From an uncultured Verrucomicrobiota bacterium (lineage in GTDB: Bacteria > Verrucomicrobiota > Verrucomicrobiia > Opitutales > Opitutaceae): DNA of 49,214 bases. The position numbers and the translations under genes are program-made. The notes beneath the pieces are model-generated. The model worked only from the letters and a program-made list of their open reading frames with translations, did no database searches and had not been told where the DNA came from. Below, piece by piece: positions 25,650 through 49,214 of the stretch (position 1 is the stretch's first letter; every line of letters starts with the position of its first letter). The DNA is taken from contig CAJXQX010000024.1 of NCBI GenBank assembly GCA_913058185.1, positions 1-49,214 on the forward strand, written 5' to 3'.

Positions 25650-26741
25650 CTAGAAATCCCACTCAATTCCCGACTGGATGGTGAGACGGCCCTTTTCGGC
25701 AGGGCTATATATACCATAGAAGGGGGGCAGGGAATCTAGAATCGTGGAGGGGATCGGTCCCAAGGTGTTATCGTAAATGTAATTCCCGGTAATGGTGAAC
25801 GCGATCGACTTTGAAAGCGCCGCGCGCAGTTTTATCTCAGCATCAGCCTTCCAAACTTCGGTTTCTTCAAACCCGATCCGGTATTTGAGACGTTGTTCAA
25901 TGGATACGCGCTCATTGAAGTGATATTCGAAACGCTCAAAGAAACCTCCGGAAACGATCCAATCGCCGTCGTAGGCAGTGCCTTTTTCGGATTCTGACAG
26001 AGCGATACCAGGCCCGAAATCAAGCATGATCCCGGGTTTGTCGATGAGTTTGAAACCATAGCCGAAAAGCGTTTCGAGCTCGTGATCAATCAGAGCGATC
26101 TCATCCACATTGTAGCTGATGCTGCCGAAATAGTAGCGATTGGGATTCTTAAGAATGTTCAGGTAGCTGGCCTCGGCACCGTAGGCGTCTACGACTGTCC
26201 CCGCCGGTTCATACTCGGCCTGATTATAATTAGCGCGCGCTTCGATCACCGAGTTTTTAGTGGCCCGGATATAGAGGCCGGAAACCCCATAATTATACGT
26301 GACTCCCTGAAGCCCCAATCCAGCACCGGTATCGGGAAATCCCGGAGGGACGGTGCCTAATGCCCCCTGCTTGAAATTGGCCGTGCTGTAATTGCCGTTA
26401 AACGAAAGAGACCTTTTAACATAGGGTTTATCGGGGTCCTTGGCCGTCTCCGCTCGGGCCACTGTAACGGGGTCCGGAGCGGTGACCTGTTCCATCGCCG
26501 CACTCTTGGCGGCATGAGCGGAATCATCCTCCGCGGATTGAGTCTCGCGACTGGTGTTATCGATGTCGGATCGGGCGATGGTGATTTCGCCGATAAGGTC
26601 GGCCTTGATCGTAACTTGGCTTCCGTTGTCTTGGAGAACTTCACCCTTTAAAATTGTGCCATTTTTGAGCCGAATCGTGGAGGCGGAAACGGAAGCACCG
26701 ATGCAGATGAGGTAAACCAGAAGGAGGGGGCGAAATTGCAT
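25650..26741 (-). CDS. DUF481 outer-membrane beta-barrel protein
   Basis: The 363-residue product starts MQFRPLLLVYLICIGASVSA, a signal peptide. An Lsm-like strand segment follows (STIRLKNGTILKGEVLQDNG, then VTIKADLIGEITIARSDI). A low-complexity Ala/Glu linker runs from about 65 to 105. The remainder is a DUF481 barrel of alternating strands from SLSFNGNYSTANFKQG onward. It ends IQSGIEWDF, with the terminal Phe expected of BAM substrates. An upstream start at 26777 would put 12 residues before the signal peptide. It is divergent from the transporter/HEAT operon. The function is unknown, as for the family. Confidence 0.88.
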   Translation of the reverse strand: MQFRPLLLVYLICIGASVSASTIRLKNGTILKGEVLQDNGSQVTIKADLIGEITIARSDIDNTSRETQSAEDDSAHAAKSAAMEQVTAPDPVTVARAETAKDPDKPYVKRSLSFNGNYSTANFKQGALGTVPPGFPDTGAGLGLQGVTYNYGVSGLYIRATKNSVIEARANYNQAEYEPAGTVVDAYGAEASYLNILKNPNRYYFGSISYNVDEIALIDHELETLFGYGFKLIDKPGIMLDFGPGIALSESEKGTAYDGDWIVSGGFFERFEYHFNERVSIEQRLKYRIGFEETEVWKADAEIKLRAALSKSIAFTITGNYIYDNTLGPIPSTILDSLPPFYGIYSPAEKGRLTIQSGIEWDF

Positions 26742-26976
26742 AGCGTCGACGAATGTCGGCGCGGTTGCTTTGAGCAACGCAAAAAATTCGATTCTGGGTG
26801 GCGGCGCGAGAAGGGCTTGTGGGGGGGAGGAGAAATTGGGACATCCGCTTGAGCTCGGCCGTTATACTCAAACTTATGCTCGCCTTGCCGGAGTGAGCGG
26901 AAAGAGAGTCGGTCGGTGATGAATCAGTGTTGCCAAGGGCAAAACAATCCTGCCGGTCGAGCGTGAAATATACGCC

Positions 26977-29900
26977 ATGAGCAATAAATATCGCTACAAA
27001 TCCGGCGATCCATGGCGGGTGGTTCCTTTTATGCTGTTGGGGGCGGTATTGCAGGGAGGTTTGGCGATTGGGGTCAGTGCGGCGGATTCCCTCTTTATAT
27101 CGAATATAGGGGCTGACCAATTACCCGTCATTTACGCCTGCATGCCGCTGCTGATGTTGGCCTACATCAGTGCCTATACTCGGATCCTCAATCGATGGGG
27201 AATCGACCGGTTGTTTGTAGCGACCATCGGAGTTTTGGTGGTGGGTGGATTTGGATTCTCCTACCTGCTGCGCACCGAAGATCCGTCGGATTCGATCTAT
27301 TACATCGCGATGTTTTACAGCTCGCTGTGGTATATCGCGCTGTATTCTTTGTTGTGGAACTTCATCGATGGTTTTTTTGACCTGAGTGAAGCGAAACGAT
27401 TATTCGGTCTGATTGCCGGAGGGGCTGCGGTGGGCGCGATTGGGGGAGGGTTTTTGGTCTCGAGTCTGAGTGAAGTCATGGGTGTGGCGTGGCTGTTTGG
27501 CGTTTGGGCCACGACTGTTTTAATGGCCCTGCCGATCGTGTGGTGGATCGTGCGCAATGTGCCCCGAATTGTGGGTGATGATGGCGGCGAACAGACCGAT
27601 GAGGACGTTAGTCTCAAAGATACGCTGAAAACGGTGCTGGGTTCGCGTTATGTCACGGTCCTGACGCTGGTGATTTTCACGGTGTCAGTGGCGGCCACCC
27701 TATGTGAATTTCGCTACTACACTATTTTTGAAGAGCACTATCCGGAAGAGAAAGCGTTGGCGGGTCTGTTTGGCCAGCTTTATGCTGGGGTGAATGTCGT
27801 CAACTTGGTGGTTACCCTGTTTTTGTTTCGGGTGATGGTGCGTTGGTTCGGGGTACGCAACGTGGCGATCATCCAGCCGGTGGTGTTTCTCGCCGTATTC
27901 GGTGTTTTGTTGCTAAATGGGGGGTTCGCGGCGGCCCTGTTTGGCTTCGTCGCTTTTCAAGGAGTGATGACTTCGATCGAATACAATAATCAGAATTTAT
28001 TGTTCAATGTGCTGCCCGAGCAGGGTAAGGAGGCGACCAGAACGTTTATTGAGGGGATCTGCGACCCCGTCGCCACGGCCAGTGCGGGCATCTTTCTGTT
28101 GGGCGCGCAGCATGTATTTTCCGATGCGGGCCTGTCGGGAGTTGGCTTTGGGGTTTCGTTCATCTGTTTGATTCTGGTGCTGGTCTTACGGGTGGAATTC
28201 GTTAAGTCCATGACGCTCAACGTGCGTCGCAGTTGGTTGGATTTCAGCCGCACGGAACGTATCCGATCCTTTGTCCGGAAGTCGGATTTGGTGTTCTTGC
28301 AGGAAAGGGCGGACGCCCCCACGGCCCATGAGCGAGAGCGGTTGGCCGCGATGGAGAGGCTGTGGCAGCTCGATCCCGTCGACACGTTGGTGCGTTTATT
28401 GGATTTCTATCCGCGCATGACTCCCGCCATCCACGATGACGCGGGTGAGTTGCTCGGCCGGATTTTGCTCACCGATAACCCCAAGGTGATTGACCGTTGT
28501 TTGACATGGGCGGAAGAGAACGGAGCGAACTGCGACCCACTGGTCCTGGAGTATTTCGGCCAACAGCGGTTGGTACCGGTCGAGATCGGTCGGGCTCGGG
28601 TGCGTTCAAGTAACCCGCGGGATCGAGCGGCGGGCGCAGTGGTATTATGGGAAAGCGGTCGAGTCGTTGATGCGCAGACCGCGCTCCGGGTGATTGATGA
28701 CTTGTTGGAAGGAGATACGAATGAAGCGGAGTCCGGATGGCATGCGCTGAGTATGATCGGAGAAATTCGATTCATCCCCCGATTGCTGCCGAACCTGCGT
28801 AGCCCGGATCCGGTTTTACGACTGCGGGCACTCCACGCCCTACAACCGCTCATGGGGCCGGATACTTCGGGGGTGCAGCGAGATCTGCTGCGCCTGATGG
28901 CGGGAAACAAGCGACTGGAAGAGCGACTCTTGGTGATCGAAGCGGTCAAGAGCATCGGAGACTCTGCCATCATTGAACCCCTGCTCCGCTTGACGAGTGA
29001 CACGGAGCCGCATGAACGGCGGAGCTTGGAGCATATGTTGACCAGTTTTGGGCCACGGGGCGTTCCAGCTGCGGTCAAAGTCTTGCGCGGAACCCATTAT
29101 CCTCTGGACTCCCGTTCGATTGCGGCGAAGGCCTTGGCCCGCGTGGCGTTTTCGCAGCTGGAGCAGATGGTGCCTGAACTGATTGATGACATTGTGCGAC
29201 GGGCCTATGTGGTGGTCGCCTACCGTCACGTGCTGAAGCTCAATGCCGATCGTGGACCGGGCACCAAAGCGTTGGGGTTGGTTTACCAAGATCTGCCGCG
29301 GTTGATGCTCGAACTTGTGTTGGAGTTGCTGAGTGTGATTGGCCGGTTGTCCGGCTATGAATCGGTCTTGGCGGCTTTGCGGGCGGAGACCGGTCGGGGG
29401 CGCGGTTATGCCTTGGAAAGCCTCGAACAGGCCTGCGGTCGCCAGTTGTTCGACCGGTTGTTGCCGATCTTGGATGAACGACCAGACCAGGAAATTTTGG
29501 CGATGGGGTTGAAGCTCGGGGTCGCCCCGGACATTTCAGTCGAAGCTATTGTCGAGCAATCATTGGGGTCCGCGTTTGCGATGGAAGCCTCCGCAGCACT
29601 GCAAGCAAAGGTTGAGGCTGATCCGGAACGGGTTCAGGAAATCTGCTTAAGTTCGCTGGTCGCCCAGCCCCATCCGATGGTGCGAATGACCGCCCGATCC
29701 CTGATGCGGCGGTCGGACCCCAGCCTGCCGAATGAATCCACGGTGGTGGAGCAAGTGTTCGAATTGGTACAGCACGTGTTCTTTCGCAACTGGGGGGTAC
29801 GCTCTCTTGAGGCGGTGGCCGAACAACTGGAGGAGCGTTGGCACGAGAAGGGAGAAGTGGTGGTGAATTTAGGGCGTAAAATGGATCGCTTTGGCGTGGC

Positions 29901-30132
29901 CTTGGAAGGGAGCTTCGAGGAAGCGAATACCAAGGAAACGGTTTCACTGCCATCGCCGGCGAATTTTGGCCGGGAGTCCTTGGGCGAAGGGCGCCTAGAT
30001 CAGAGACGCTCAGTGGTGGTGAGGGACCGCGCCCGGATTCTGTGGATGCCGGCCAGTGCTTTGCGCTCCTGTCTTCAAGCTCAACCTCGACTGGCGATTG
30101 ATTTGATGATTTGGAAACTGGCTCAACCATGA
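26977..30132 (+). CDS. NTT/MFS-like transporter fused to HEAT repeats and a CNB-like domain
   Basis: A 1051-residue protein with three regions. Residues 15-420 contain about 12 hydrophobic helices with the feel of nucleotide-transporter-like MFS proteins (AADSLFISNIGADQLPVIYACMPLLMLAYIS; AKRLFGLIAGGAAVGAIGGGFLV). Residues 440-900 are helical pairs typical of HEAT/PBS-lyase repeats (SGWHALSMIGEIRFIPRLLPNL; VLRLRALHALQPLMG; RLLVIEAVKSIGDSAIIEPLL). Residues 915-1051 match a cyclic-nucleotide-binding-like fold (VFFRNWGVRSLEAVAEQLEE, KGEVVVNLGRKMDRFGVALEG, FGRESLGEG, then a capping helix). It heads a four-gene operon; its stop overlaps the next start (ATGA). Whether it transports or only senses is unknown. 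Confidence 0.85.
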   Translation: MSNKYRYKSGDPWRVVPFMLLGAVLQGGLAIGVSAADSLFISNIGADQLPVIYACMPLLMLAYISAYTRILNRWGIDRLFVATIGVLVVGGFGFSYLLRTEDPSDSIYYIAMFYSSLWYIALYSLLWNFIDGFFDLSEAKRLFGLIAGGAAVGAIGGGFLVSSLSEVMGVAWLFGVWATTVLMALPIVWWIVRNVPRIVGDDGGEQTDEDVSLKDTLKTVLGSRYVTVLTLVIFTVSVAATLCEFRYYTIFEEHYPEEKALAGLFGQLYAGVNVVNLVVTLFLFRVMVRWFGVRNVAIIQPVVFLAVFGVLLLNGGFAAALFGFVAFQGVMTSIEYNNQNLLFNVLPEQGKEATRTFIEGICDPVATASAGIFLLGAQHVFSDAGLSGVGFGVSFICLILVLVLRVEFVKSMTLNVRRSWLDFSRTERIRSFVRKSDLVFLQERADAPTAHERERLAAMERLWQLDPVDTLVRLLDFYPRMTPAIHDDAGELLGRILLTDNPKVIDRCLTWAEENGANCDPLVLEYFGQQRLVPVEIGRARVRSSNPRDRAAGAVVLWESGRVVDAQTALRVIDDLLEGDTNEAESGWHALSMIGEIRFIPRLLPNLRSPDPVLRLRALHALQPLMGPDTSGVQRDLLRLMAGNKRLEERLLVIEAVKSIGDSAIIEPLLRLTSDTEPHERRSLEHMLTSFGPRGVPAAVKVLRGTHYPLDSRSIAAKALARVAFSQLEQMVPELIDDIVRRAYVVVAYRHVLKLNADRGPGTKALGLVYQDLPRLMLELVLELLSVIGRLSGYESVLAALRAETGRGRGYALESLEQACGRQLFDRLLPILDERPDQEILAMGLKLGVAPDISVEAIVEQSLGSAFAMEASAALQAKVEADPERVQEICLSSLVAQPHPMVRMTARSLMRRSDPSLPNESTVVEQVFELVQHVFFRNWGVRSLEAVAEQLEERWHEKGEVVVNLGRKMDRFGVALEGSFEEANTKETVSLPSPANFGRESLGEGRLDQRRSVVVRDRARILWMPASALRSCLQAQPRLAIDLMIWKLAQP

Positions 30133-32069
30133 AGCGACCTACCTTTCAGTTCAAAATTCGTACGTGGCTGCAACTCGGATTGCTACCGGCTTTGACAGGT
30201 ATCGCGATTTGGATTGGCTGGGGCCTTTATGACGATTTGCGCCGGATCATTCTGGAGCGTTTTGATCGGCAGCTGACGTCTCCCAGCGTGGTTGTGGCAG
30301 CTTTCATTGATGTGGAGGAGCATCAATGGTTGGCCGAAAACAGGAACGTGCGGGCCCTAACCTATGTGCCCGGGGAAGATGTCTTTTTCGCCTTGGCGGA
30401 TTACGACGGCGTTACGAAAATGGTGCAATTCTCGCCGGAGGATGGTCGTCTTCCGGCCGCTGGGATTACGCTCAACCCTGCGATAGTAGACCTAGCTTTT
30501 GATATCACGACCGGGAGTTTGATGGGTTTGACCGAAGCGGGTGGTCAGCTGGTGCGGGTAAACCCGAATACGGGTGGCAGCCAGACGTTGATCGATGCGC
30601 CCAACGGAGTGCATGAGATTGCTAGCGCGGGTGAAGGCGGGGTATGGATCAAAGCCAATGATGTGCGTCTTTGGCAGGTTGGACTGGGAACGGATGCGCC
30701 GGGATTACCGATTCCGGAAATTTATGATCCCCCCCGTCTCGTCGGAACGAATCCGGCGGGTGACGCGCTCCTTTGGATCAATGCGCCTGACGACGAGTTG
30801 GTCTGGCAGAATATTGAGGACGGAGAAATCAAGAGGGTGCCATGGACCGGGGAGATCGATCTGCCGCAGGAATTGGGGTATGATGTTACCCGCGAACGTT
30901 GGGTGGCAGCTCAGGAGAAATTGTGGGTGGTCGATTTGGCGGCGAACACGGAAGTCCCCGATTCTTTTGTGGCCGCTTATGGCCGTGAGGATTCGGATGA
31001 GTATCGGCGCTTGATGGCGCCTCTGATCCGTATTCACGCCCGTTTAGGGCTAACCTATCTTTACACTCAGGTCGTCGAACCACCGGACCGCATTCGTTAT
31101 GTGGCGGATACGCTGGAAAGTGGCACCTATTCACCATTACTTTCAACCGACGTGTTACCGGCCGCGGAGGTGGAAGGCATCACCCGACTCAAGGCGGAGG
31201 GTTCACTTCATTTCACCGATCTCCAACAGTGGGATCAATGGGGTTGGTTGAAATCGGCTTTCGCGCCGATCTTCGACGAAGAAGATCAAGTAGTCGCGAT
31301 GACGGGGACAGATTTCAACGCGAGTCTGATCGAGCTCAGTTTAAGACGTTCTTTACTGGCGGTTTTCTTAATCGGCGGTTTCACCCTGGTCATCGCTTCG
31401 GGTTGGTCCTTGATTATATCGCGCTGGCTGCAACGTCCGATTGAGAATCTAAAATCAGGCGCCCTCGATGTGGCCGCGGGCGATTTCCAATCGCTGACGG
31501 TCTCCGGATCGCGGGAAGTGGACGCTTTAACCAAGGTGTTTAACGAAGCGAGTGCGATGATGGAGAGATCGGTTGAAAATTTGACAGACGAAGTGAATTT
31601 ATTGCTCCGACGGCGGGACCGAGCCGAGGTTCAGCGGGTGTTTGTCGACTCCTTGTCGCCTCCGTGCGTTTTTGAGGACGACCTTGCCGTCGTGGTGGAG
31701 CACTACACGGCTGGGGTGGGTGGGGCGATTGCACTAAAAGGTGATCGTCGACTGATATGGTGGGAAGAAACGGTGTCAGGTGAGCAGTCGCAGAAATCAC
31801 TGGTACGATTGGGTGGGGTCGCGGGGCAGGTCCGTACTCGGTTCGGCTCTCTCATCGCCCCCACCGACTCGCCCGGGCGGTGGCCCGACCATTTACGAGC
31901 GGTGCTTGCCTTGGATTTACAGAAACGGACTGCGATGGGGTGGGTGAAAAATCCCGCGGATCCGTTGCCGGTCTCGCGGGACGCAGAACGGTTCACCGTC
32001 GGCTGGTCTGATAGCGGGCCCGTTTTGGTATTGTCTCACTATGAACTGCAGGAGGCCGCTCCGTTATGA
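30129..32069 (+). CDS. Membrane sensor with HAMP domain and degenerate PP2C-like C terminus
   Basis: The 646-residue product begins MKRPTFQFKIRTWLQLGLLP with a first transmembrane helix (about 12-32). A periplasmic region of about 370 residues contains propeller-like repeats (LTYVPGEDVFFALADYDGV; VDLAFDITTGSLMGLTEAGG). The second helix (RSLLAVFLIGGFTLVIASGWSLI) is followed by a HAMP unit (RPIENLKSGALDVAAGDFQSL) and a coiled stretch. The last 140 residues have no kinase or cyclase motif. The segment AEVQRVFVDSLSPP ... VEHYTAGVGGAI resembles the start of SpoIIE/PP2C phosphatases with the metal Asp of GGD changed to Ala. It is the second gene of the operon, coupled by ATGA overlaps at both ends. 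Confidence 0.78.
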   Translation: MKRPTFQFKIRTWLQLGLLPALTGIAIWIGWGLYDDLRRIILERFDRQLTSPSVVVAAFIDVEEHQWLAENRNVRALTYVPGEDVFFALADYDGVTKMVQFSPEDGRLPAAGITLNPAIVDLAFDITTGSLMGLTEAGGQLVRVNPNTGGSQTLIDAPNGVHEIASAGEGGVWIKANDVRLWQVGLGTDAPGLPIPEIYDPPRLVGTNPAGDALLWINAPDDELVWQNIEDGEIKRVPWTGEIDLPQELGYDVTRERWVAAQEKLWVVDLAANTEVPDSFVAAYGREDSDEYRRLMAPLIRIHARLGLTYLYTQVVEPPDRIRYVADTLESGTYSPLLSTDVLPAAEVEGITRLKAEGSLHFTDLQQWDQWGWLKSAFAPIFDEEDQVVAMTGTDFNASLIELSLRRSLLAVFLIGGFTLVIASGWSLIISRWLQRPIENLKSGALDVAAGDFQSLTVSGSREVDALTKVFNEASAMMERSVENLTDEVNLLLRRRDRAEVQRVFVDSLSPPCVFEDDLAVVVEHYTAGVGGAIALKGDRRLIWWEETVSGEQSQKSLVRLGGVAGQVRTRFGSLIAPTDSPGRWPDHLRAVLALDLQKRTAMGWVKNPADPLPVSRDAERFTVGWSDSGPVLVLSHYELQEAAPL

Positions 32070-32461
32070 GTCCGGTGGAAATCATGTTTGCCCTCCAGCA
32101 GACGCCGCCGTTTGACAGCCTCACGGACAGCGAGTTGGAAATTGCAGCGACCGTAGCCGTGGAACTTCGCTTCGCAGCTGGGGCTTTGGTGTTGGGTCCG
32201 GGAGAGCCCTTTCATCGTTTGCTGATCAAGCTGGAGGGTTCGTGGCAATTAAATGATCAAGAACTGCCGGGCTTACTGGGGATTGAGTCCTTGTTGGCGG
32301 GGGCTGAGGGGCCCGGTGAAATTAGGGCGGGTGCGGCGGGCGCCAGATGCCTGACCTTCACCCGTGGACACTTTTTTACGTTAATCAATGAGTGCCCAAC
32401 GCTGTTGCTCTCTCTCCTTTCAAGTGCGGATCAAGTCAAGGAGGAGCGAGGCTTTTTATGA
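32066..32461 (+). CDS. Small stand-alone CNB-like (cyclic-nucleotide-binding fold) protein
   Basis: A 131-residue protein with the rhythm of a CNB/cNMP domain. A lead helix (LQQTPPFDSLTDSELEIAA) is followed by VAVELRFAAGALVLGPGEPFHRLLIKLEG, which aligns with the barrel entry of such domains. LPGLLGIESLLAGAEG stands where the phosphate-binding cassette would be. CLTFTRGHFFTLINECPTLLLSLL is the usual closing strand and helix. The Arg of a functional cassette is not evident, so nucleotide binding is doubtful. There is no DNA-binding domain, unlike Crp. The start overlaps the previous stop and the stop overlaps the next start (ATGA twice). Confidence 0.75.
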   Translation: MSPVEIMFALQQTPPFDSLTDSELEIAATVAVELRFAAGALVLGPGEPFHRLLIKLEGSWQLNDQELPGLLGIESLLAGAEGPGEIRAGAAGARCLTFTRGHFFTLINECPTLLLSLLSSADQVKEERGFL

Positions 32462-33822
32462 AATTTCAGACGCAGGCTTTGTTAGGTGTGGTGCCGCTGT
32501 TTCTCATGATCGGCTTGGCGGGAGCTGCAGCCTCGTTGCTGCTCAAGTCATTCGATTGGCGCAAAGGCCCGGAGGAGCAAGCCCGAGGTATGGCGGTGAG
32601 TATCGCTGAATACCTAGCGGGGGACGGTTGGCCAACCAAGCACCCCGCTGCGCAACTCCGTTTACTTGAAGCCGAGGAGGATCTTGAACGCTGGGAGTTC
32701 CTGAAGGGAATTTGGATATGGGATGCGGAGGGGAAAATGATCCATCAATGGCCAATTCCGCAAGCGGAAGCGATGTCGGCCGATGGGCCTAGACCAACGC
32801 TGGACTTTAAGCAGGCCACGGCGGCCAACGCGTTTTCGATTGGTCGACTCGGTTCCAATTCCCACCCCAATGGCGTTGTGCGGGGAGGGGCCGTGGTTTG
32901 GGCAGAAGGTGGAAGTCGTCTTGGCTGGGTCGAGTGTGAACTCGAAGCAGTGGGCTGGTTGGAGGCGATTGGCTGGTTGGACGAATGGAATAATCAGAAG
33001 ACCGGCGTGCTCGAACTCATGGTGATCATCCTCATTCTTGGCGTTTTGATTGCGCTCCTCTTTTCCCGATTGGTGATGGGGGATATCAAGCGACTGATCA
33101 GCTCAGCTGAAAGGGTCGGCGGCGGTGATTATTTGCCGCCGCCGGGAATGCATGTGATGGAGTTGCAGGACCTCAGCGAGACCTTCTCCGTGGTCGACAG
33201 CCTAACCGACGAGAATCGCCGCAAATTTCAACGCTCCCTGATCGAGAACGAAATGTTCCGGACCAGTGATGTTTTGGTCGAAGAGTTTCAGAGCCTAGCC
33301 ATGCCTGATCTTGATCGAGTGGTGGCTGGTAAACGGGTCGTTAGCCGGCTTTTTGACAAAGTAGAAGGCTCTCGTTGGCATGGTCTTGGGGGAGATGACC
33401 AACAAGGATGGCTGTGGTTTGGCTCTATGGCTGGACCCAATGGCATCGAAAAGGCAGCGCAAGCCTTGGCGGTGGCCTCGGAGTTTGAGTCCCTTCTCAT
33501 CGAGCATGCGACTCCCATTGAGACGGCCCTTTTGGAATTGGGTCCGCTGTATCAATTGCAGCAAGCGCAGATTGTGACGTGGACTGCCAAGGCGAAAGAT
33601 TTTGAAGTGTGGACTTGGTCGCAAGATTCCGCCCAAGCGTCCCGCCGATTAGTACCGGCTGGAAAGCGTTATCTCGGCTGCGATCTCGGCGGAGAGATAG
33701 CGACCACCATCGATCTGGTTTGGGATGGGTCCGCCGCGCGGGATATGGATACCGCCTTGGCGGAGTTGGTGCAGTTTCTGGGCAATACGAATGCGGTGGT
33801 CGCCGCCATCGAAGCGGGTTAG
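32458..33822 (+). CDS. Second HAMP membrane sensor with pseudo-PP2C-like C terminus
   Basis: From the ATG at 32458, preceded by GGAGGAGCG-type Shine-Dalgarno bases, the product has 454 residues. It has helix 1 (LLGVVPLFLMIGLAGAAASLLL), a periplasmic sensor of about 150 residues with several Trp, and helix 2 (LELMVIILILGVLIALLFSRLV). A HAMP region follows (GDIKRLISSAERVGGGDYLPPPGMHVMELQDLSETF). The final 170 residues align by eye to SpoIIE-type phosphatases: WLWFGSMAGPNGIEKAAQALAVASEFESLL stands where active enzymes have a DVxGHG metal motif, so the catalytic residues are lost. It looks paralogous to the gene at 30129. Last gene of the operon. Confidence 0.75.
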   Translation: MKFQTQALLGVVPLFLMIGLAGAAASLLLKSFDWRKGPEEQARGMAVSIAEYLAGDGWPTKHPAAQLRLLEAEEDLERWEFLKGIWIWDAEGKMIHQWPIPQAEAMSADGPRPTLDFKQATAANAFSIGRLGSNSHPNGVVRGGAVVWAEGGSRLGWVECELEAVGWLEAIGWLDEWNNQKTGVLELMVIILILGVLIALLFSRLVMGDIKRLISSAERVGGGDYLPPPGMHVMELQDLSETFSVVDSLTDENRRKFQRSLIENEMFRTSDVLVEEFQSLAMPDLDRVVAGKRVVSRLFDKVEGSRWHGLGGDDQQGWLWFGSMAGPNGIEKAAQALAVASEFESLLIEHATPIETALLELGPLYQLQQAQIVTWTAKAKDFEVWTWSQDSAQASRRLVPAGKRYLGCDLGGEIATTIDLVWDGSAARDMDTALAELVQFLGNTNAVVAAIEAG

Positions 33823-33852: not shown

Positions 33853-35124
33853 TTAGTTAGGGGCCAAGGTCTGGCATTTCTCCGCGGTGATCCGAAGACA
33901 CTTCCGTAAGATCGTCATGCCCTCGCCGAGGGTTTCACCGTCAATGGTCAGCGGCGGCAGAAGCTTGAGCACGTTACTCTCGGATCCGCAGGTTTCAATA
34001 ATCAGTCCCTGTTGGAAGGCTTCCTGCGCGACCTGTTTGCACTGGATTGAGTCTTTGAATTCAAATCCGTGAATCATGCCGATTCCCCGGTTGGTTGTGG
34101 CCATTTCCGGGAATTCATTTTCCAGGTCCTGGAGATGTTGCCCGAGCAGTTCGCCTTTGCGGCTGACTTCCTGAGAGAAGTCATCGTTTTGCCAGCGCTG
34201 CAATGCACGGTCCGCCGCGACAAAAGCAAGATTGTTACCGCGGAAAGTTCCGGTGTGTTCACCGGGTTTCCATTGATCACATTCGGGGCGAATGAGCAGC
34301 ACCGACATGGGCAGCCCCACCCCGCTGATCGATTTTGAAAGGGCGATCATATCAGGTTTGATTCCGGCGCGCTCAAAACTGAAGAAAGTTCCGGTCCGGC
34401 CGCATCCGACCTGAATGTCATCAACGATCAAGAGAATGCCATGCGCTTGGCAAAGTCCCGCGATACCTTGGAGCCAAGTATCGCGAGCAATGTTGACGCC
34501 GCCTTCGGCTTGCACGGTTTCGAGCACGATCGCGGCAGGCAAATCCACGCCACTTGATTGGTCCTCCAAAACTTTGGTTAAGTAGGCCAGCGTATCGACG
34601 TCCGGTCCCAAGTAGCCGTCGAATGGCATGAAGGCCACATCCAGTCTTTGAATCCAGGACTCATGCCGGAAGTGGCGATTGGCGGTGATCGCCATCGCGC
34701 CGGCACTCAAACCATGGTAACCGTTGGTGAATGCGATCACGTTGCGGCGGCCCGTCACTCGGCGGGCTAGTTTCAGGGCCGCCTCAATGGCGTTGGCGCC
34801 GGTCGGGGCCGTAAATTGGACTTTGTAGTCCATGGCCCGTGGTTCCAGCACGATGGATTCGAAACTCTCCAAAAATCTTTGTTTGGCCACCGTGGCCATG
34901 TCCAAGCTGTGCAAAACTCCTCCCTCCTGCAGGTACGCGATCAGGGCGGCAGTCATTTCGGGCGGGTTATGCCCGTAGTTTAGCGCCCCTGCTCCGGCAA
35001 AGAAGTCGATGTAGGGCCGGCCTTCGCGGTCAAAAAGGCGGGCTCCCTCGGCTCGTTCAAATACGGTGGGAAAGGAGCGACAGTAGGAGCGGATTTCAGA
35101 TTCGCGCCGTTGAAAAATATTCAT
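33853..35124 (-). CDS. ectB: Diaminobutyrate--2-oxoglutarate aminotransferase (EctB/Dat type)
   Basis: PLP-dependent class III aminotransferase that makes L-2,4-diaminobutyrate from aspartate semialdehyde. The 423-residue product has FAGAGALNYGHNPP, TGANAIEAALKLARRVTGRRN and GYHGLSAGAMAIT. The metal/PLP Asp is in LLIVDDIQVGCGRTGTFFSFE. The PLP Lys is in IALSKSISGVGLPMSVLL, and PGEHTGTFRGNNLAFVAA is very specific for EctB. An upstream start at 35262 would overlap the NRPS end and lacks homology. No ectA or ectC is adjacent. It is the last gene of the NRPS operon, 43 bases after the thioesterase module, so it probably supplies diaminobutyrate to the synthetase rather than ectoine. Confidence 0.92.
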   Translation of the reverse strand: MNIFQRRESEIRSYCRSFPTVFERAEGARLFDREGRPYIDFFAGAGALNYGHNPPEMTAALIAYLQEGGVLHSLDMATVAKQRFLESFESIVLEPRAMDYKVQFTAPTGANAIEAALKLARRVTGRRNVIAFTNGYHGLSAGAMAITANRHFRHESWIQRLDVAFMPFDGYLGPDVDTLAYLTKVLEDQSSGVDLPAAIVLETVQAEGGVNIARDTWLQGIAGLCQAHGILLIVDDIQVGCGRTGTFFSFERAGIKPDMIALSKSISGVGLPMSVLLIRPECDQWKPGEHTGTFRGNNLAFVAADRALQRWQNDDFSQEVSRKGELLGQHLQDLENEFPEMATTNRGIGMIHGFEFKDSIQCKQVAQEAFQQGLIIETCGSESNVLKLLPPLTIDGETLGEGMTILRKCLRITAEKCQTLAPN

Positions 35125-35167
35125 ATGATTAAGGTTTACCGAATTCGTCGATGGATGGCAGAAGGGA

Positions 35168-38100
35168 CTACCAAGTAATTCCAGCCAAAATGTCACGCAG
35201 CTTATGCGCGTTGGTTTCCAACTGGGGAGGGTACAACAGTTCGTTATGGGAGCCACGAGCAACGTGAATATGATAATTGCCGCGAGTCACTTCCCGCCAG
35301 CCATGGGTGCGGGTGAGCACTTCCCCCGCAGGATCACGGAAATCACGGGAGTCGCGGCAGACGATTCCATGAATATCAGCCGCAATCTGATGGGTATCGA
35401 GGGTTTGACTCATATGCTGGTAATAAGCGGCGATGACGCGCGCCGCTTTTTCGCGCAGAAGGGGGGTGGAAACGTAGGGTTTCATACTCTCGTGATCGAG
35501 GAACGCTCGGGTAACGTTGGCGCATTCCCCGGGTGGAAACTCGATCGGTCGCACCACTTGGGCGGAATCGAACATCACCACGGCCCCAACGGTGCGGCCC
35601 TGGTGCTCCAGTATAGCTGCGAGGTGGTAGGCGAGATTTCCGCCGGCGGAATAGCCGCCCAGCACCAGCGAACCCGACGGGGCGGCGGCGGTGATCAGTT
35701 CCGCGTAGGTCGTGAGACGATCGTTGGCCGGGAGAAAATTTAAGCCGTGGACGGCGTAGTGTGGAAGGGCTTGGGCCAGTTGCAGATAACCCAAAGCGTC
35801 ACCCGTTCCCGGGGGGAGCAAAAAGAGGTTGGGCCGGTCCGGGGCATCGGATGGATTGAGCAGGACCATAGTCTCATCAATACCGTCATATCCGAATCGA
35901 GCGGCATTGACCAATAGTTCGGCCTGGGCCCGCACTGTCGTGGCTTTGAATAGGGCGGTGAGAGGTAGGGGCACCTCGAACGTGTCGCGCAGTCGGGCGG
36001 CCAGCTTGGTGACTTTGAGGCTATGCCCTCCGACCGAGAAAAAGTTGTCGGTGACCCCCAAGTGGGGTAACTCAAGCACATCTTGCCACAGCGTGAGGAT
36101 AGTGCGTTCGGTCTCGGAATCGGGCGCTATGCGTTCAATCCCTCCGCCGCGGGAATCGGCAATTGCGGGAGGAGGGAGCGCCGCTCGATCCACTTTGCCA
36201 TTGGCGGTAAATGGCAGGACATTCAGCGCGATGAAATGAGTAGGCACCATGAACTCCGGCAGTTCCGTGGTCAGATGCTGTCGCAGACTGTCGGCCTCCG
36301 CGTTGCCGGTGGTGTAGGCCACCAACGTGAGGGAGCTGTCGCCGAGATCCTGGGCCAAGACCACCGCATCCGCTACGTTAGGGTGGTCCCGTAATCGTAC
36401 TTCGATCTCGCCGGGTTCAATGCGAAAGCCGCGAATCTTGACCTGCTGGTCTTTGCGACCGAGGTATTCGATCGTTCCATCGTCCCGCCAACGACCGAGG
36501 TCTCCGGAGCGGTAGAGCCTGATTTCCATGCCCGCACTCACGGTTTGCCGAAAGAATTTTTCCGCCGTTAGAGCGTCGTCGCTCAAATAGCCCCGCGCCA
36601 GTCCATCGCCTCCGGTGCAAATCTCCCCGGCCACCCCCGAGGGGACCAACGCGTGATGGCCGTCGAGAATGTAGACCGAGGTGTTGGCAATCGGTCGACC
36701 AATCGGAATATTGTCCGGGTAGTCGCTCGTGATGCGATGACAGCAGGTGAAGGTGGTATTCTCAGTGGGGCCATACCCGTTGATCACGGTGAGATTGGGA
36801 TGGGCCGCCCGGATTCGGTTAATGTGAATTGCCGAGAGCTTTTCTCCGCCCACCAGTAAAGTGCGTAGTCCGGTGAAAAGGGCCGGGGCCGTATCAACGA
36901 GTTGGTTGCACAAACTGGAGGTGAGCCAAACGGTGGTGATTCCGTAAGTGGTGAGCAGGGGTTTGAGTGCTGCGGGATCGAGTACGGTTTTCTCGGGCGG
37001 TCGGCACAGGCTGCCGCCGTTGAGCAGCGCTCCCCAGATTTCGAAGGTCGAGGCATCGAAGGCCAAGGCACCGGTCATCAAAATGCGGTCGTTGGATGTA
37101 AGGGAAATGTAGTTGGTGGCCTTGACCAAGCGCAGGATCGAACGGTGTTCGATCAGGACGCCTTTCGGTCGCCCCGTGGTGCCCGAAGTATAGATGACAT
37201 AGGCAAGTCCCCGGGATTGGGAACGCTCGGCCAGGGGGGTACTCGGTTGATCGGCCAGAGCTCTCGCATCGAGTTGGAGTTTTCGCGGGGGGCGTGGGGG
37301 CTTGGCGGATTTGCTTTTATCAATGCGCAGCACGGTATCGTAACCAAACCGAGAGAGTTCACTCTCCGTGTGGCCGAGCATGGTGGAAAACTCAACCGAT
37401 GCGATCTCTGGCCAAGTAGATTGCAGATCCAACCAGAAATCCCGGGACACGAACAGGTCCTCGGAACGGTCGGTTTTGGTACGCACTCCGGAGCTGGGGT
37501 GAGCGTGTTGGTAGGCGCGCAGCTCCGCTTCGAAAACATCTTTTTGGTCCTGATCCCAGACATTACCCAAAAATAATGTGCCTTGGGCGCCGAGCTGATC
37601 GATCGCCTGACGCAACACGTCACGCAAATAGTTAAGGCCACTAAAGCACTGCAGCACGCTATTGATGATCACAACATCGTAGGGTGGCTCGGGAGCCTGC
37701 CGGAGTTTGTGAGCAGGCAGGTGTTGCAGGGTGATATTGGTCAGGCCGAGGCGCTGGCGTTCTTGTTCCGTCCAGCTCAGAATCTGGGCGGAAAGGTCGG
37801 TCCCATGATAGTGCCCGACCAACGGGGCCAGTCGGAACATGCTGATGCCGGAGGCACATCCGATCTCCAGGACTCGGTCGGTGGGCTGCAACATCGGACC
37901 GAGTTTGCGGCGAATATTTTCACCATATTCGTCCATCACCTTACGGCTCAGTAGTTCGCCGGTGAAGCTACTGCGCCAACCACCACCTGAGATATCGTCT
38001 TCCGTTTGCTCACCCACCATGTCCCAAATTTCTTCCCGCATGAACTCGCCGATTCCCTCGGATTCGACGGCGACGTTTTCACTGTCCGGGCAAAGTAATA

Positions 38101-38575
38101 GGCTCAAATCAGAACACTCCCAATGCAGGCGATTGAGGGTTCGAATATGGCGCCGACTTCCAATCAGACAGCGCGCGCGCGTTTCCCGTAGCATCAGCAC
38201 GGAGCGGGCGGATGGCATGTTCGCGTCGAGTGGGAGATAGGCTCCCCCGGCTTCGAGGATCCCCAGCAATGCCGTCGCCACATCATATGCCTGATCGACC
38301 ATGACCCCGACCAGACCCTCGCGTTCTAGGCCGTTAGTCACCAGCAGATGGGCGATGCGATGAGCTCGAGCAGCTACTTCCGCATAGCTACGGGAACCTT
38401 CGGGTCCAACAATGGCTAGCGCGTCAGGCGTAGCTTCTGCTTGGCGTTGGAATTCCGCGTGCACCGTGCGGTCGCACGGATAGGCGGTTTGATTGGCGTT
38501 GAAGCCCGCGATCAAGTTGGCCAGATCGGCACTGGGTTGCTCATCGTCGAGCAGATTAAAATCACCGATTTTCAT
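35168..38575 (-). CDS. NRPS, terminal module: A (interrupted by methyltransferase)-T-TE
   Basis: A 1135-residue synthetase with no condensation domain of its own; it uses the C domain ending the upstream protein. The adenylation domain runs A1-A2 (LLGILEAGGAYLPLD), then is split by a SAM methyltransferase (about 178-417; DRVLEIGCASGISMFRLAPL). It resumes at A3 (AYVIYTSGTTGRPKGV, residue 463). The eight-to-ten residue code reads DAFWLGGTF by eye, close to valine-type codes. The carrier Ser is in FFSVGGHSLKVTK (about 849). The thioesterase (about 910-1135) has nucleophile GYSAGG, Asp in VVMFDSAQ and His in ARGSHNELL. Start overlaps the upstream stop (ATGA). It releases the finished peptide. Confidence 0.93.
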   Translation of the reverse strand: MKIGDFNLLDDEQPSADLANLIAGFNANQTAYPCDRTVHAEFQRQAEATPDALAIVGPEGSRSYAEVAARAHRIAHLLVTNGLEREGLVGVMVDQAYDVATALLGILEAGGAYLPLDANMPSARSVLMLRETRARCLIGSRRHIRTLNRLHWECSDLSLLLCPDSENVAVESEGIGEFMREEIWDMVGEQTEDDISGGGWRSSFTGELLSRKVMDEYGENIRRKLGPMLQPTDRVLEIGCASGISMFRLAPLVGHYHGTDLSAQILSWTEQERQRLGLTNITLQHLPAHKLRQAPEPPYDVVIINSVLQCFSGLNYLRDVLRQAIDQLGAQGTLFLGNVWDQDQKDVFEAELRAYQHAHPSSGVRTKTDRSEDLFVSRDFWLDLQSTWPEIASVEFSTMLGHTESELSRFGYDTVLRIDKSKSAKPPRPPRKLQLDARALADQPSTPLAERSQSRGLAYVIYTSGTTGRPKGVLIEHRSILRLVKATNYISLTSNDRILMTGALAFDASTFEIWGALLNGGSLCRPPEKTVLDPAALKPLLTTYGITTVWLTSSLCNQLVDTAPALFTGLRTLLVGGEKLSAIHINRIRAAHPNLTVINGYGPTENTTFTCCHRITSDYPDNIPIGRPIANTSVYILDGHHALVPSGVAGEICTGGDGLARGYLSDDALTAEKFFRQTVSAGMEIRLYRSGDLGRWRDDGTIEYLGRKDQQVKIRGFRIEPGEIEVRLRDHPNVADAVVLAQDLGDSSLTLVAYTTGNAEADSLRQHLTTELPEFMVPTHFIALNVLPFTANGKVDRAALPPPAIADSRGGGIERIAPDSETERTILTLWQDVLELPHLGVTDNFFSVGGHSLKVTKLAARLRDTFEVPLPLTALFKATTVRAQAELLVNAARFGYDGIDETMVLLNPSDAPDRPNLFLLPPGTGDALGYLQLAQALPHYAVHGLNFLPANDRLTTYAELITAAAPSGSLVLGGYSAGGNLAYHLAAILEHQGRTVGAVVMFDSAQVVRPIEFPPGECANVTRAFLDHESMKPYVSTPLLREKAARVIAAYYQHMSQTLDTHQIAADIHGIVCRDSRDFRDPAGEVLTRTHGWREVTRGNYHIHVARGSHNELLYPPQLETNAHKLRDILAGITW

Positions 38576-41500
38576 GCGGGAGGAGAAATCATGCAGGCAA
38601 AGCGATCCAAGAGATCGAGGTAACGTTGGATAGTGGCGACCTTAAACAGTCCGGTGTCGTATTCCAAGGTCAGGCTGATGTCACGACCATCATCTTCGGC
38701 AAAAAGAGTGAGATCGAATTTGGAGGTATGGAAGGTATGTTCAAACGGGGTAATCTTCGGACTGTTGGCAGCGGCTTCCCCGGGAGCGGTTGCCCCGATA
38801 TCAATGTGAACATCGGAGAAATTCTGAAAGGCGTAGACGATATTGAGTAGTGGTTGGCGATTGGCGGCCCGATCGGGGTTGAGCTGTTGGACCATGAGGT
38901 CGAAGGGGTAGTCTTGGTGTTCAACCGCAGCGTCGGCGGCGGAAACCACCTGATCGAGGAGCGTTTCAAAATCCATGCTGTCATCGAGACGAACCCTGAC
39001 CGGTAACAAGTTAACGAAAAACCCGATCAAATTTTCGAGATCCGGATGATTCCGGTTGGCGATACTCATACCGATACAGAAATCGTCCTGTTTGGTGATT
39101 TGGAAGAGCAGGAGATCGAAAACTGCGAGCAGCGCGTTGGCCACGGTGGTACGACGATTTTGAGCCACCGCCCTGAGGGCGGCCACGGCTTTCGGACTCA
39201 ATGGCTTCACCAAATGGTCCCCGCGAAAATCGCGATCTCCTTTTGGCGTGAAATCGTAGGGAAGCCTCAGGGCCGATGGCGCGCCCTGCAGCGCACTGCG
39301 CCAATACGATTCCTCAGCCGTCCAGCCCCGGTTCTTTTGCCAGGCGGCAAAATCCTTGTAGTGCAACCGCAAGGGCGGAAGGGGATCCGAGGCACCGGTT
39401 GATGCAGCCTCGTAAAGGGCAAAAATCTCCCGATAAAGCACGTTGCCTGACCAACCATCCCCCACGATGTGATGGATGGTTTGCAGATAGATCCAGCGAT
39501 CCGGAGCGAGCTTGATCAAAACGGTGCGGAGCAGGGGCGGAGAGCGCAGGTCGAATGGTTTCGCTGCTTCCGTGTCTGCCATTTCGCGCGCGCGGTCCTC
39601 CGCATCGGGTTGAGCGGAGAGATCGATGCTCACCATCTGATAGTCCACATCGGTGAGGATGGTCTGAACGGGGTCGCCGCCGAACTCGTTAAATGCCGTG
39701 CGCAGGGCTTCATGACGGGCGACGACGCCGGTAATCGCCTTGGCCAAGGCTGCCGGATCCAGATGGCCGGAAACTCGGTAGGCCTCGGGCATGTTGTAGG
39801 CGGACTCGCCGCCAAGTTGATGCAGCAACCAGAGGCGTTGCTGGGCGAAGGACAGCGGATAGTGAGGTGCCGGAGTGGCGGTCGGAATGCCGCTCAGGCC
39901 CGAGGCTGATGATGAGTCTTGGCCCGCCGCCACGATGCGCGCGAGTCCCTCCACTCTGGCATCATCGAAGAATGCTCGCATCGGCACTTTAACCGCCAAT
40001 TCACGGTGGATGCGGGAAAGCAATTGCATGGCCTTGAGACTGTGTCCTCCGCAGGCAAAAAAATCATCGGTCACGCTGCTTTGAGGTATTTGCAGCACCG
40101 CCTGCCACAGTTCCAGAATTGAGGCTTCAAGGGGAGTGCGTGGAGCGACGACCGCCTGGCCGTTATTTTCCTGCACCGATTCAGGATCGGGCAGGGCACG
40201 TCGGTCTACCTTCCCATTGGGCGAAAGCGGAATGCGTTCGACGGTGACCCAGTGGGTGGGAACCATGGCCGCAGACAGTGTGGTCCTAAGGTGTTCTCGC
40301 CAGCAGGAGGCATCCGTCTGCTTCGGGGAGGAGGGAACGATGTAAGCGACCAATTCCAAATTCCCGCGAAGGGTGCGAGTGTCAACCACCGCATCGACCA
40401 CGTCGGGACATTCGCGCAGGCTGGTTTCAATTTCACCCGGCTCAATCCTCACTCCCCGGATCTTCACTTGCCGATCCCCCCGGCCCAAAAACTCGAGGGT
40501 GCCATCGGAGCGCCAACGTGCGAGATCTCCGGTGCGGTAGAGGCGTTGCCGACCATCACCGGGATCCATGGTTGGGAAGCGTTCGGCCGTCAGTTCAGGA
40601 CGTTGGTGGTAGCCTCGGGCGACGCCTTCACCGCCAATGAAAAGTTCGCCCGGCACGCCGATCCCCGCGGCCCGACCCTGCGGATCCAACACGTAAACCC
40701 GTTGATTGGCTAGAGGTTTTCCAATCGGAGTGGATTCGTTCCCTTCTTCGGTTCCGGGGTCGGACTCTTCGTAAAAACAAGTGTCGATGGTGGCTTCGGT
40801 AACGCCGTAGCTATTGAGGATACGCCGGTTCCCGCCAAATCGTTTGACCAACTGTCGATAGTCTTCGGCCCTCAGGGTGTCAGATCCAAGAATCAAGAGC
40901 TCCAAATCGGGCAAACTCAAACCGGCGGCATGAACGTGTTCCATCAATGGAAGGATCAATCCCGGGGTGCTCTCAAACTGGGTGATCCGGTATTTTTGCA
41001 ACATCTCCACCAGTCCCTCTGGATCTACCCGGGTGTCGGCGTCACAGATAATCAGGGAGCCGCCATTGGTCAGCGCGCGGATGAAATCACCCATGAAAAC
41101 GTCGAAGGACAAGCTAGCCATCTGCAGGATGCAGGGGGGAGTGGCTGCGTTTCCGATACCGTAGCCCACTCGCCACGCGATGGCGGCATTGACCAGGGAG
41201 TGGTGTTCAACCGCGACCCCCTTGGGTCGACCGGTTGAACCGGAAGTGTAGATCGTGTAAGCGAGGTGATGGGGCTTCAAGTCCACCTGGAGGGCGAGGG
41301 CGGTGGGTCTCGCCGACAGTTCGGCCAATGAGAGCACCCCCCAGTTATTGCCGATAGCCGCCGTCAGCTCCCGTGAAGAGCCCGTGGTGACCACCAGCCC
41401 GGCGCCGCTGTCATCCAACATTCCGCGTAGTCGTTCAGCCGGATATAGCGGATCGAGGGGAAGGTAAGCTGCCCCCGACTTGAGCACCCCCAACACGGCC

Positions 41501-44500
41501 GCGATCATGGCGGGGTTACGATCGGCATAAATTCCCACGACGAATTCGGGACCAGCACCCCGGATTTGCAATGCGCTGGCCAGCTGGTCTGCCCGGCGGT
41601 GCAGTTCGGCATAAGTCAGGGATTCCTCATTTTGCACCACGGCAATTTTCCCAGCGTGACGCGCGAGGCCTTCATTTAAGAGATCGACCAACGTGGCATG
41701 GGCGGGCAGAGGTTGGGCGTTCTGATTGAACTCGGAGGTGACCCGATTTTGCTCGGTGGCCGATACGTCATCAATGTGATGCAGCGGTTCGCTCGGGGTG
41801 GCCGCCAGGCCGTTGAGCAGAGTTTGAAAACGATCCGCCAGCCGAGCGATTTGCTCATCCCCGAACACCGACCGCTCATGTCCGAATCGCAGCGTGATGG
41901 ATTCACTGGGATCGATGGTGAGATCAAATTCGTAGTGAGTGCGGTCATGCGCTTCCACGTGTTCGATGACTAACTCGTGACCAGGGTTCGATGCCGTGGT
42001 GCGATCCAGCGGATAGTTCTCAAAAACCAAGAGATGATCAAACAGCTCTCGCCCGAGGGGGGTAAGGGTTTGGATTTCCGGCAGGGGCAGATGGTGATGA
42101 GGTTCGGCGGCCAGCGCGTCGGCTTGCGTGTTCGAGATGAGATCCGAAAACGAAGTATTTTCGTCGCAGTGAATTCGCACCGGCACGGCACAGATGAACA
42201 GACCGACCATTCGCTCCACGCCGGATAAGCTGGCGGGTCGACCGGATACGATGGCGCCGAAAACCACATCATCCGTGCGGTTCAGGCGTCTCAGCAATAC
42301 CCCCCAGGCGGCTTGGAGCACGGTAGCCAGCGTGGCCCCGGAATCGGCGGCGAGGGTACGCAACGCGTTACTCAGTTCCACGCCGAGGACAGTGGTGTAT
42401 TCAGCATGGGAGGAAGGCCCTTGGTTGAGGGGATCATGGGGGACGCTGGATGTCGCCTCGTAGCCGGCTAGGTAATCAGTCCAGAAGGTGCGAGCTGCGG
42501 CGGGAGGAGTTTGTTCCAGCCAGCGCACGTAGTCACGGTAGGGCACGCTGGGTTCGAGCTGGGCTTCACCGGTGTAAAGGGCGAATAAATCCCGATGCAC
42601 CAGTCCGAGACTCCAGCCGTCCAACAACACATGGTGGTAGCTCCAGCCGATCTGGTTGAGGTCATCGGCCAGTTGCCACACGGTAACGCGCCACAAGGGG
42701 TCGTGGGCGAGGTCGAACGGCCGGGCCAGGTCGGCCGCCCGGTGGTCGGCAATACGGGTCTGCTGTTCAGTCTCACCAAGGTGGCGCAGATCGACGATTT
42801 CGACCGGCGGGGACCGGTGTCGCCAAACAATTTGGAGCGGCTCCGGTACATCCTCATGCAGGAATGAGGTGCGCAAAATAGTGTGGCGTTGAGCGAGTTG
42901 AATCCAGGCTTCGCGAAATGCGGGAGCATCCATGGGGCCCCGCAGCCGGTAGGCCATTTGGACGAAATACGCACTCGAGGTTTCGTCGAAGACCGATTGG
43001 AAGAGCAGGCCTGCCTGCATCGGCGAAAGCCGGGCCACGTCCTCCACTTCGGTGGCCGCCCAACCTTCTCGCTGCAACATCGCCTCGTATTCGGATAGTC
43101 GAAAAATCTTGGACGTGAAATCAGCGGGGGTCGCCTCCACCCCGGTTCGATTGCCGCAGATCTCAATGAGCCTGGCGAGTTCGTGGATCCAATCGTCCAG
43201 CAATCCCTGGATGGCTCCTTCGTCATAGCGATGGCGACCAAAGGTCAGAGACAATCCCATGGCCCCACCGGTAACGGCCGCGCCGGCGTCGATTTCTTGC
43301 AGCCGGATCACATCCGGCCCAATAGGCGTGCCGGAAGATTCTTCCGCAAAGGCGAGCATGGTTTCAGGAGCATCGTCGAATCGGCCGAGATAATTGAACG
43401 AAAGAGGGGCGTGAACGATCCGATCAAATTCGGGTCCCTCCATGAGGAATGCCCGGGGACCGAAGGTGGTACCGTGGTGGGGAATAACCCGGCGGGCTTC
43501 TTTCAGCGCTTTGAGCTGGGTGATGGGATCGTCGGAAACCAGGACTAAACGAAAGGGGTGGAGGCTGGTGAACCAGCCCACGGTATCTTCCGGGGCCGGC
43601 ACGCCGGGGCGGCTCTCGCGCCCATGGCCCTCCATCATCACCTGAGTGTTGGCGCCGTGGTGCCAGCGCTGGAGCGCGCGGCCCAGGGCGAGTAACAGCA
43701 GATCTTCGACGTCGGTTTGGAAGGCATGCTGCGCCCGGGTGAGCAGATTCTGGGTGAGGTCGGAAGAAAGTCGGGCGTCGAGTGTGGTGGTGTCACCGAA
43801 TCGATTTGGTGAATCAGAAATCGGGGTCGGCCACGCCCCGGGGTCTTCTGTCAGAAATGGGTCCCAATAGTCGCCGTCGTGGTCGGCCGGGACTAGGGAT
43901 TCGACCCACTGGCTGATGGGGAGAGGGCGGGGGCCCAGATCGATGGACCGACCGGCTTCCGTTTGCGCCAGAGCGGTGGATAGATCCTCGACCAGCAAGC
44001 GCCAAGATACTCCGTCGACGACCAGATGGTGAGCGACGATCAGCAGGCGCTGGGTCGACGGTAATTGATAGAGTACGACTCGAACCAGCGGACCTACCTT
44101 TAAATCGAATTCGGAGTGTACCCGCTCAGTGTGACTGAGCCTATCCGATTCGTTCTCCACTGTAACGACTTCGAGGGGGATGTCATGGTGGGCGGGCAAG
44201 ATTTCGAGGCCAGTTCCTCGCTCGACGGTGCGTAAGGCGTCATGGTGTCGCCATAAAGCGGAGACCGCGGTTTGAAGAGAGGTCACCTTTTGCGGGGAGC
44301 GGGGGTGCAGTAACACGGCCTGATTGAAGTGCTGGCGACCCGTCTCAAAATGGCGCAGGAACCACGCTTGAGCCGGAGTGGCCGGCACGGCCCCTTGGAG
44401 TGTCGGATAAGCCGGGGACGGCTTCGATCCGGCGGTGCGGTCCAGCTGGGCGGCTAATGCTGTGACGGTGGGAAATTGAAAGAGGTCCGCCACCTTCACC

Positions 44501-49168: not shown

Positions 49169-49214
49169 CTGTCTCTTATACACATCTCCGAGCCCACGAG
49201 ACCGAGGCTGATCT
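49169..49214. other. Illumina Nextera adapter contamination at contig end
   Basis: CTGTCTCTTATACACATCT (49169-49187) is the Tn5 mosaic end. CCGAGCCCACGAGAC (49188-49202) is the Nextera read-2 adapter. CGAGGCTG (49203-49210) sits exactly where the eight-base i7 index belongs, and ATCT (49211-49214) starts the P7 sequence. None of it is genomic. Confidence 0.99.

Follow-up and report, generated by a model that had tools for sequence, protein, structure and literature searches.

A conserved four-gene NTT-HEAT operon with a predicted pseudo-phosphatase receptor in an Opitutaceae bacterium and its possible part in partner switching

The window analysed here is a stretch of 49,214 nucleotides (contig CAJXQX010000024.1 of assembly GCA_913058185.1) from an uncultured bacterium of the Opitutaceae (Verrucomicrobiota). 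It carries an operon of four genes, g1 to g4, which encode an NTT-type membrane protein fused to HEAT repeats and a domain like the cyclic nucleotide-binding domains (cNBD), two HAMP-type receptors and a free cNBD-fold protein (Table 1). An original prediction, made by a model from the letters of the DNA, had described these four reading frames with ATGA at all three junctions, and frames and overlaps were found exactly where it placed them. Four-base overlaps (ATGA, GTGA or TTGA) are also the rule in relatives, joining g2 to g3 in 46 of 50 locus rows and g3 to g4 in 48 of 50 (41/45 and 43/45 once five contigs present twice are removed). Between g1 and g2, the four-base form occurs in only 11 of 49 rows, duplicates included; in Alphaproteobacteria, given the start codons chosen in the analysis, an 11-base overlap is found in 24 of 32 loci. 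The recurrence of the four-base overlaps across phyla argues that they are not due to chance.

Table 1 Features of the operon and its surroundings in the window
Feature	Position	Strand	Length	Description
DUF481 gene	25653-26777	-		Pfam match 7e-20; upstream of g1
g1	26977-30132	+	1051 aa	fusion of NTT/MFS-type domain (aa ~1-420; count of 12 helices from the original prediction), HEAT repeats and cNBD-like domain (aa ~930-1045)
g1/g2 overlap	30129-30132	+	4 bases	ATGA
g2	30129-32069	+	646 aa	transmembrane segment, beta-propeller, Cache-type domain, transmembrane segment, HAMP, C-terminal part
g2/g3 overlap	32066-32069	+	4 bases	ATGA
g3	32066-32461	+	131 aa	small cNBD-fold protein
g3/g4 overlap	32458-32461	+	4 bases	ATGA
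g4	32458-33822	+	454 aa	transmembrane segment, periplasmic domain, transmembrane segment, HAMP-like region, pseudo-PP2C
Diaminobutyrate transaminase (EctB-like), then multimodular non-ribosomal peptide synthetase (NRPS) genes	33853-49197	-		convergent with g4; gap of ~30 bases

The composite nature of g1 was supported by searches at two levels. In Pfam, the protein matched TLC/NTT (3.6e-10, 39.7 bits, cut-off 21); MFS_1 (1.9e-7, 30.8 bits) stayed under its cut-off of 33.4 and HEAT_2 (3.7e-6, 27.6 bits) marginally under 27.7, and no cNBD was found with g1 alone. When g1 was combined with three orthologues into a profile (A7) and searched against the PDB, a designed HEAT protein was matched at 4.2e-24, and profile positions 948-1028 matched a regulatory subunit of protein kinase A (E 6.7e-9). 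The succession of an NTT/MFS domain, HEAT repeats and a CNB-like domain, as proposed for the first gene in the original prediction, was thus recovered from the Pfam and PDB profile matches. Its further part as the "transporter core" of the operon is an assumption and describes a putative role. The free CNB-like domain proposed for g3 was likewise confirmed. The g3 of the window had no match in Pfam, and its profile matched cNBD chains of the PDB with a best E of 3.2e-9. The glutamate of the phosphate-binding cassette, placed in register by the alignment between the g3 profile and the PDB, is absent in 44 of 44 g3 sequences; canonical cAMP binding is therefore unlikely.

The receptor g2 has a HAMP domain in Pfam (4.6e-7, 30.5 bits, cut-off 25). 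Its AlphaFold2 model, with a mean predicted local distance difference test (pLDDT) score of 79.7, runs from a membrane helix through a beta-propeller and a Cache-type domain to another membrane helix and HAMP. The propeller (aa 70-284) resembles a glutaminyl cyclase of propeller fold (Z 16.3), and this model range accounts for the beta-propellers that make up most of the 50 PDB matches listed. The segment at aa ~282-397 is read as a Cache-type domain from the order of elements in the model; among orthologues, Pfam gave weak dCache matches (E 0.0054 for L104, 0.053 for L113). The C-terminus (aa ~500-646) is poorly predicted in the full-length model, with pLDDT values of about 30-80.

The second receptor, g4, was modelled with more uniform scores (mean pLDDT 82.9, and 85-97 in blocks of ten residues across the C-terminal domain, 271-454). 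Residues 270-454 adopt a predicted PP2C fold, whose best structural match is Rv1364c RsbU/RsbW (Z 15.2, root-mean-square deviation 3.0 over 175 residues), followed by RsbX (14.7), SiaA (14.4) and RssB (14.2); matches within 1 Z were counted as tied. The PP2C-like C-terminus, for which a fold search had been proposed as the check, was hence corroborated, with phosphatases of partner-switching systems at the top. The predicted loss of metal residues was confirmed as well. No column of the C-terminal domain is acidic in at least 80% of 34 g4 sequences, against 23 such columns, including fully conserved aspartates at the expected places, in 34 PP2C homologues (33 from g1-g4 loci and one from L092). 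Strict metal motifs are missing altogether in 42 of 44 g4 proteins, the other two having one. Among the 33 linked PP2C proteins, all four motifs are found in 25, only the first is missing in six, and two or three are missing in two. As the ligands are gone across the family, their loss, judged by motif and column counts, characterizes the family as a whole rather than reflecting damage to one genome. In the window's own genome, a short stand-alone frame (G000:C12:32315-32761; L090:7310-7717, minus strand) matches only the pseudo-PP2C of g4 (E 1.6e-21).

Furthermore, both receptors resemble the active phosphatase encoded beside the operon in relatives. Against this linked HAMP-PP2C protein, HHalign gave a probability of 99.4 for the full-length g2 profile and 97.1 for that of g4, and the likeness spans the membrane segments, the sensor and HAMP. 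Pfam detected no domain in the g4 of the window, and SpoIIE was also unmatched in the five relatives scanned. HAMP was not found by Pfam in the g4 of the window, L096, L098 and L113; it was found in L102 above the cut-off (4.7e-7) and in L133 below it (4.7e-4). The original description of both proteins as HAMP-type membrane sensors is supported, the HAMP region of the window's g4 being putative.

The conservation of the locus was surveyed by scanning the contigs of one genome per species, from 84,980 species, for g1; the scan was pattern-limited and yielded 43 loci. They belong to Opitutaceae, another lineage of Verrucomicrobiota, Sphingomonadales, Caulobacteraceae/Phenylobacterium, one metagenome-assembled genome (MAG) of Campylobacteraceae and one cyanobacterial MAG (Leptolyngbya). 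The order g1-g2-g3-g4 is kept in 40 of the 43 loci, the remaining three being cut by contig ends, so the four genes are not scattered among relatives and the conserved order suspected at the outset is real. Profiles for g1-g4 were grown over the loci; those for STAS, RsbW, PP2C and a pyridoxal phosphate (PLP) decarboxylase were built from one sequence each, from EW11 or G226, and applied at E 1e-3.

A SpoIIE-type phosphatase gene adjoins g1-g4 in 33 of the 40 loci. It is divergent in Alphaproteobacteria and lies downstream in L098 and in the Opitutaceae genome EW11. Genes for PP2C, STAS, the RsbW-type kinase and the PLP decarboxylase occur together in 30 of the 40 loci (29 alphaproteobacterial ones and EW11). 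For instance, Pfam assigned the products at L113 to SpoIIE (1.8e-48), STAS (1.1e-15), HATPase_c_2 (4.5e-23) and Orn_Arg_deC_N (7.7e-36); the decarboxylase scored 236.5 bits against LysA, below the cut-off of 297.9. All 30 linked STAS proteins have a serine at what we take to be the phospho-serine position of RsbV. A SET-domain gene separates the kinase from the decarboxylase at L103, and in six Opitutaceae loci the decarboxylase is followed by HemK-like and methyltransferase genes. Ten g1-g4 loci do not have the full switch set. For four of them (L093, L102, L116, L134), the contig ends on one or both sides of the operon; the downstream flank of L098 is short; and in L094, L096, L097, L112 and L133 no match was found in several kb on at least one side.

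Gene trees of g3 (44 sequences), g4 (42), g2 (29) and g1 (14) all separate the alphaproteobacterial copies from the rest with support of 0.993-1.0, a pattern that fits joint inheritance of the four genes. The copies of Leptolyngbya (L102) and Campylobacteraceae (L133) group with Verrucomicrobiota in the g3 and g4 trees, owing to either gene transfer or a binning error. The module is rare among the sampled genomes. Full-length g4, with partial-profile matches left out of the counts, was found in 10 of 200 genomes of the family (one with an internal stop), in 4 of 288 of the phylum (14 matched at E 1e-10) and, of the 289 genomes in the class sample around L113, in one, namely L113's own (4 matched). 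Class searches of 236 genomes at E 1e-3 matched g2 in 30 genomes and g1 in 28, the weaker matches covering part of the query. The association of NTT-HEAT with switch genes is seen again in G151, from another family of Verrucomicrobiota, where an NTT-HEAT gene is followed by genes for STAS, DJ-1/PfpI and a HAMP-SpoIIE-HATPase fusion (L092:1792-7864, minus strand), and no g2-g4 were found within the 9.5 kb examined.

The partner-switch gene set carried by the relatives would place the operon with the partner-switching systems. Given the conserved order and the linkage to switch genes, g1-g4 most likely supply the membrane-sensing half of such a module, an interpretation held with moderate confidence. 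The proteins g2 and g4 would be receptors, each with a periplasmic sensor and HAMP, related to the active HAMP-SpoIIE phosphatase, and g4, perhaps also g2, would end in a dead PP2C domain. As an NTT-type membrane protein, g1 would probably scaffold the receptors through its HEAT arm, and the cNBD-fold domains of g1 and g3 may serve in protein-protein contacts or ligand binding. Where the module is complete, STAS would be phosphorylated by the RsbW-type kinase and dephosphorylated by the active PP2C. This switch would be tuned by the pseudo-phosphatase receptors, which would either pair with the active phosphatase or hold phosphorylated STAS, depending on what g1, g2 and g4 sense. In its simplest form, a single STAS protein would be acted on by one live output and at most two dead ones, from receptors joined by the HEAT arm of g1. 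Complex formation, the scaffold role, the tuning mechanism and the ligands are what we infer from this arrangement.

Several observations weigh against this interpretation. Between 20 and 40 kb of the window, no PP2C, RsbW-type kinase or STAS gene was found beside the operon. The best RsbW-type (HATPase_c_2) match of the window genome reaches 7.1e-7, compared with 2.0e-22 in EW11, and is taken as a putative histidine kinase; the SpoIIE matches of this genome sit on other contigs, and SpoIIE is also present in G085, a genome of the same genus in which g4 was not matched. No switch genes were detected in the examined flanks of G226, the Campylobacteraceae locus L133 and the Opitutaceae loci L094, L096 and L097. 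The alphaproteobacterial loci are mutually related and thus not independent, and the scan was limited by its pattern; independent support therefore comes from EW11, and from L098 for PP2C and decarboxylase only. The kinase candidates fit the strict RsbW N-box pattern in 2 of 30 cases and the G-box in 22 of 30, some predicted starts being possibly too late, so that the RsbW-type call depends on the profile matches. HAMP in the PP2C protein of L113 scored 19.2 bits, below the Pfam cut-off of 25. Finally, the C-terminal domains compared on their own with PP2C gave HHalign probabilities of 5.8 (g4) and 2.1 (g2), with hmmsearch scores no better than shuffles. The PP2C claim for g4 accordingly derives from its fold. 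Of the two metal-dead phosphatase C-termini in the original prediction, that of g4 stands and that of g2, with a low-confidence model and no profile match, is a candidate.

With regard to the window genome itself, no close homologue of the linked decarboxylase was found there (best 28% identical). The assembly comprises 159 contigs at 99.18% completeness, so a missed switch gene is possible, not likely. The receptor half of the window, like that of G226, would thus act on a partner encoded elsewhere or would have been re-used. For the window genome, this could mean the use of a distant phosphatase or a re-use such as governing g1 or the neighbouring NRPS genes.

A broader proposal can be made only tentatively, and we consider it doubtful. 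The loci may represent a cross-phylum class of switches in which a transporter-like HEAT scaffold holds two dead-phosphatase receptors, which compete or pair with one live receptor for STAS and so compare several signals; NTT-HEAT proteins in general, including those of Chlamydia, would then be receptors and not nucleotide carriers. Apart from this broader proposal, NTT-HEAT(-cNBD) proteins are widespread, and their recurrent link to HAMP-type receptors, at least one of them a pseudo-phosphatase, and to switch genes offers a testable hypothesis on their role. The link also suggests that Chlamydia is not alone in using dead phosphatase receptors in partner switching.

As for the surroundings of the operon, relatives of the upstream DUF481 gene lie near g1-g4 in the Opitutaceae loci L031, L034, L084, L096 and L097, on varying sides. 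Transaminase and NRPS genes likewise follow the operon in G226 (L031), and in G324 (L084), of the window's genus, the operon is followed by the transaminase and a piece of the NRPS. The operon of G324 (L084/L094) appears to be decaying or to contain assembly errors, with g1 broken into two frames and an internal stop in g4. Near g4 in G164, an adenylate/guanylate cyclase catalytic domain extends over two frames (L034:3443-4107; Guanylate_cyc 1.9e-8 and 2.3e-16). A conserved protein of ~265 aa is encoded near the locus in 29 alphaproteobacterial loci (e.g., L103:7438-8226). No significant match was obtained in Pfam, where two members were scanned, or in NCBIfam and PDB sequence searches; judging from a motif, we presume a likeness to class III nucleotide cyclases and leave the protein out of the mechanism. 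Counts of promoter and terminator patterns were close to or under the shuffle mean.

An unlikely, though serious, alternative puts transport at the centre. The protein g1 would be a working carrier of a nucleotide-like or other solute, g2-g4 its sensory regulators, and the switch an optional attachment in some lineages. This would account for the window, G226 and L133, where g1-g4 stand with no switch genes nearby. It also agrees with the strong conservation of the NTT domain, in which many polar and charged residues, including D131, K140, R141, E244, N337, N338, R355 and E359, are invariant in 14 sequences. The TLC/NTT match and a partial match of profile A7 to ADP/ATP carrier chains in the PDB (2.9e-7) point the same way; solved NTT carriers, however, were matched weakly and partially (E 1.3e-4), and the substrate is putative. 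Moreover, two HAMP-type receptors, one of them with a phosphatase fold, would to our knowledge be unusual regulators of a transporter.

It is quite improbable that the operon serves a thiotemplate natural-product cluster, with g1 exporting or sensing the product and g2-g4 regulating its synthesis. NRPS genes do abut the operon in the window and in G226, NRPS-like genes are found near the L096 and L098 copies, and L089 encodes a phosphopantetheinyl transferase (PPTase) and an AMP-ligase/ketosynthase (KS) protein; decarboxylase and methyltransferase genes immediately precede the operon in six Opitutaceae loci (L031, L089, L095, L096, L097, L100). Nonetheless, the alphaproteobacterial, EW11 and Campylobacteraceae loci have no match (E 1e-10) to the NRPS or transaminase of the window, and the window genome does not have the linked decarboxylase. 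The cAMP-controlled ATP uptake suggested for NTT-HEAT-cNBD proteins (Major et al. 2017, PMC5381601) fits the architecture of g1, the cyclase fragments beside g4 in L034 and the presumed cyclase-like gene of 29 alphaproteobacterial loci, yet is very improbable here, as the free cNBD has no cassette glutamate in any of the sequences, the cyclase-like gene of the alphaproteobacterial loci has no significant Pfam match, and g2 and g4 would be left unexplained.

The survey by Major, Embley and Williams described NTT-HEAT(-cNBD) fusions with the same architecture as g1, likewise with a separate cNBD gene, directly after the NTT-HEAT gene, and treated their function as unknown (PMC5381601). Its main text mentions SpoIIE 0 times, and the available text notes no HAMP receptors or partner-switch genes as neighbours. 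The architecture of g1 is therefore already published. Among titles and the starts of abstracts, in a search with most subscription journals outside its reach, no paper tied NTT-HEAT proteins to HAMP pseudo-phosphatases or partner switching.

Partner-switching systems such as RsbU/V/W, SiaABCD and Rv1364c consist of a SpoIIE-type phosphatase, an RsbW kinase and a STAS antagonist. Compared with these systems, the loci of relatives include all three components in 30 of 40 cases, and the fold of g4 is nearest to their phosphatases. The loci add an NTT-HEAT scaffold, a PLP decarboxylase, a cNBD protein and a pair of receptors that lack an active phosphatase; the copy in the window is without adjoining switch genes. 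RssB of P. aeruginosa and E. coli, a sigma-control protein, has a C-terminal domain of PP2C fold similar to that of g4, and in E. coli this domain has lost phosphatase activity. In contrast to the HAMP-type receptor g4, RssB is a cytosolic response regulator. The nearest precedent for a dead phosphatase receptor is CT589 of Chlamydia trachomatis, a membrane-spanning paralogue of RsbU with lost metal ligands that was proposed to bind RsbU or to sequester RsbV (Thompson 2015, PMC4552016; reviewed in PMC5177608). The two options considered above for g2 and g4 are those proposed for CT589, the likeness being one of published description rather than of compared sequences. CT589 is a single receptor, and the available text of both papers mentions no NTT-HEAT/cNBD operon with it. 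The original view that the layout matches no described system thus needs qualifying: most relatives' loci carry the PP2C, RsbW-type and STAS genes, and with CT589 published as a metal-dead RsbU paralogue, the operon is not without a described relative.

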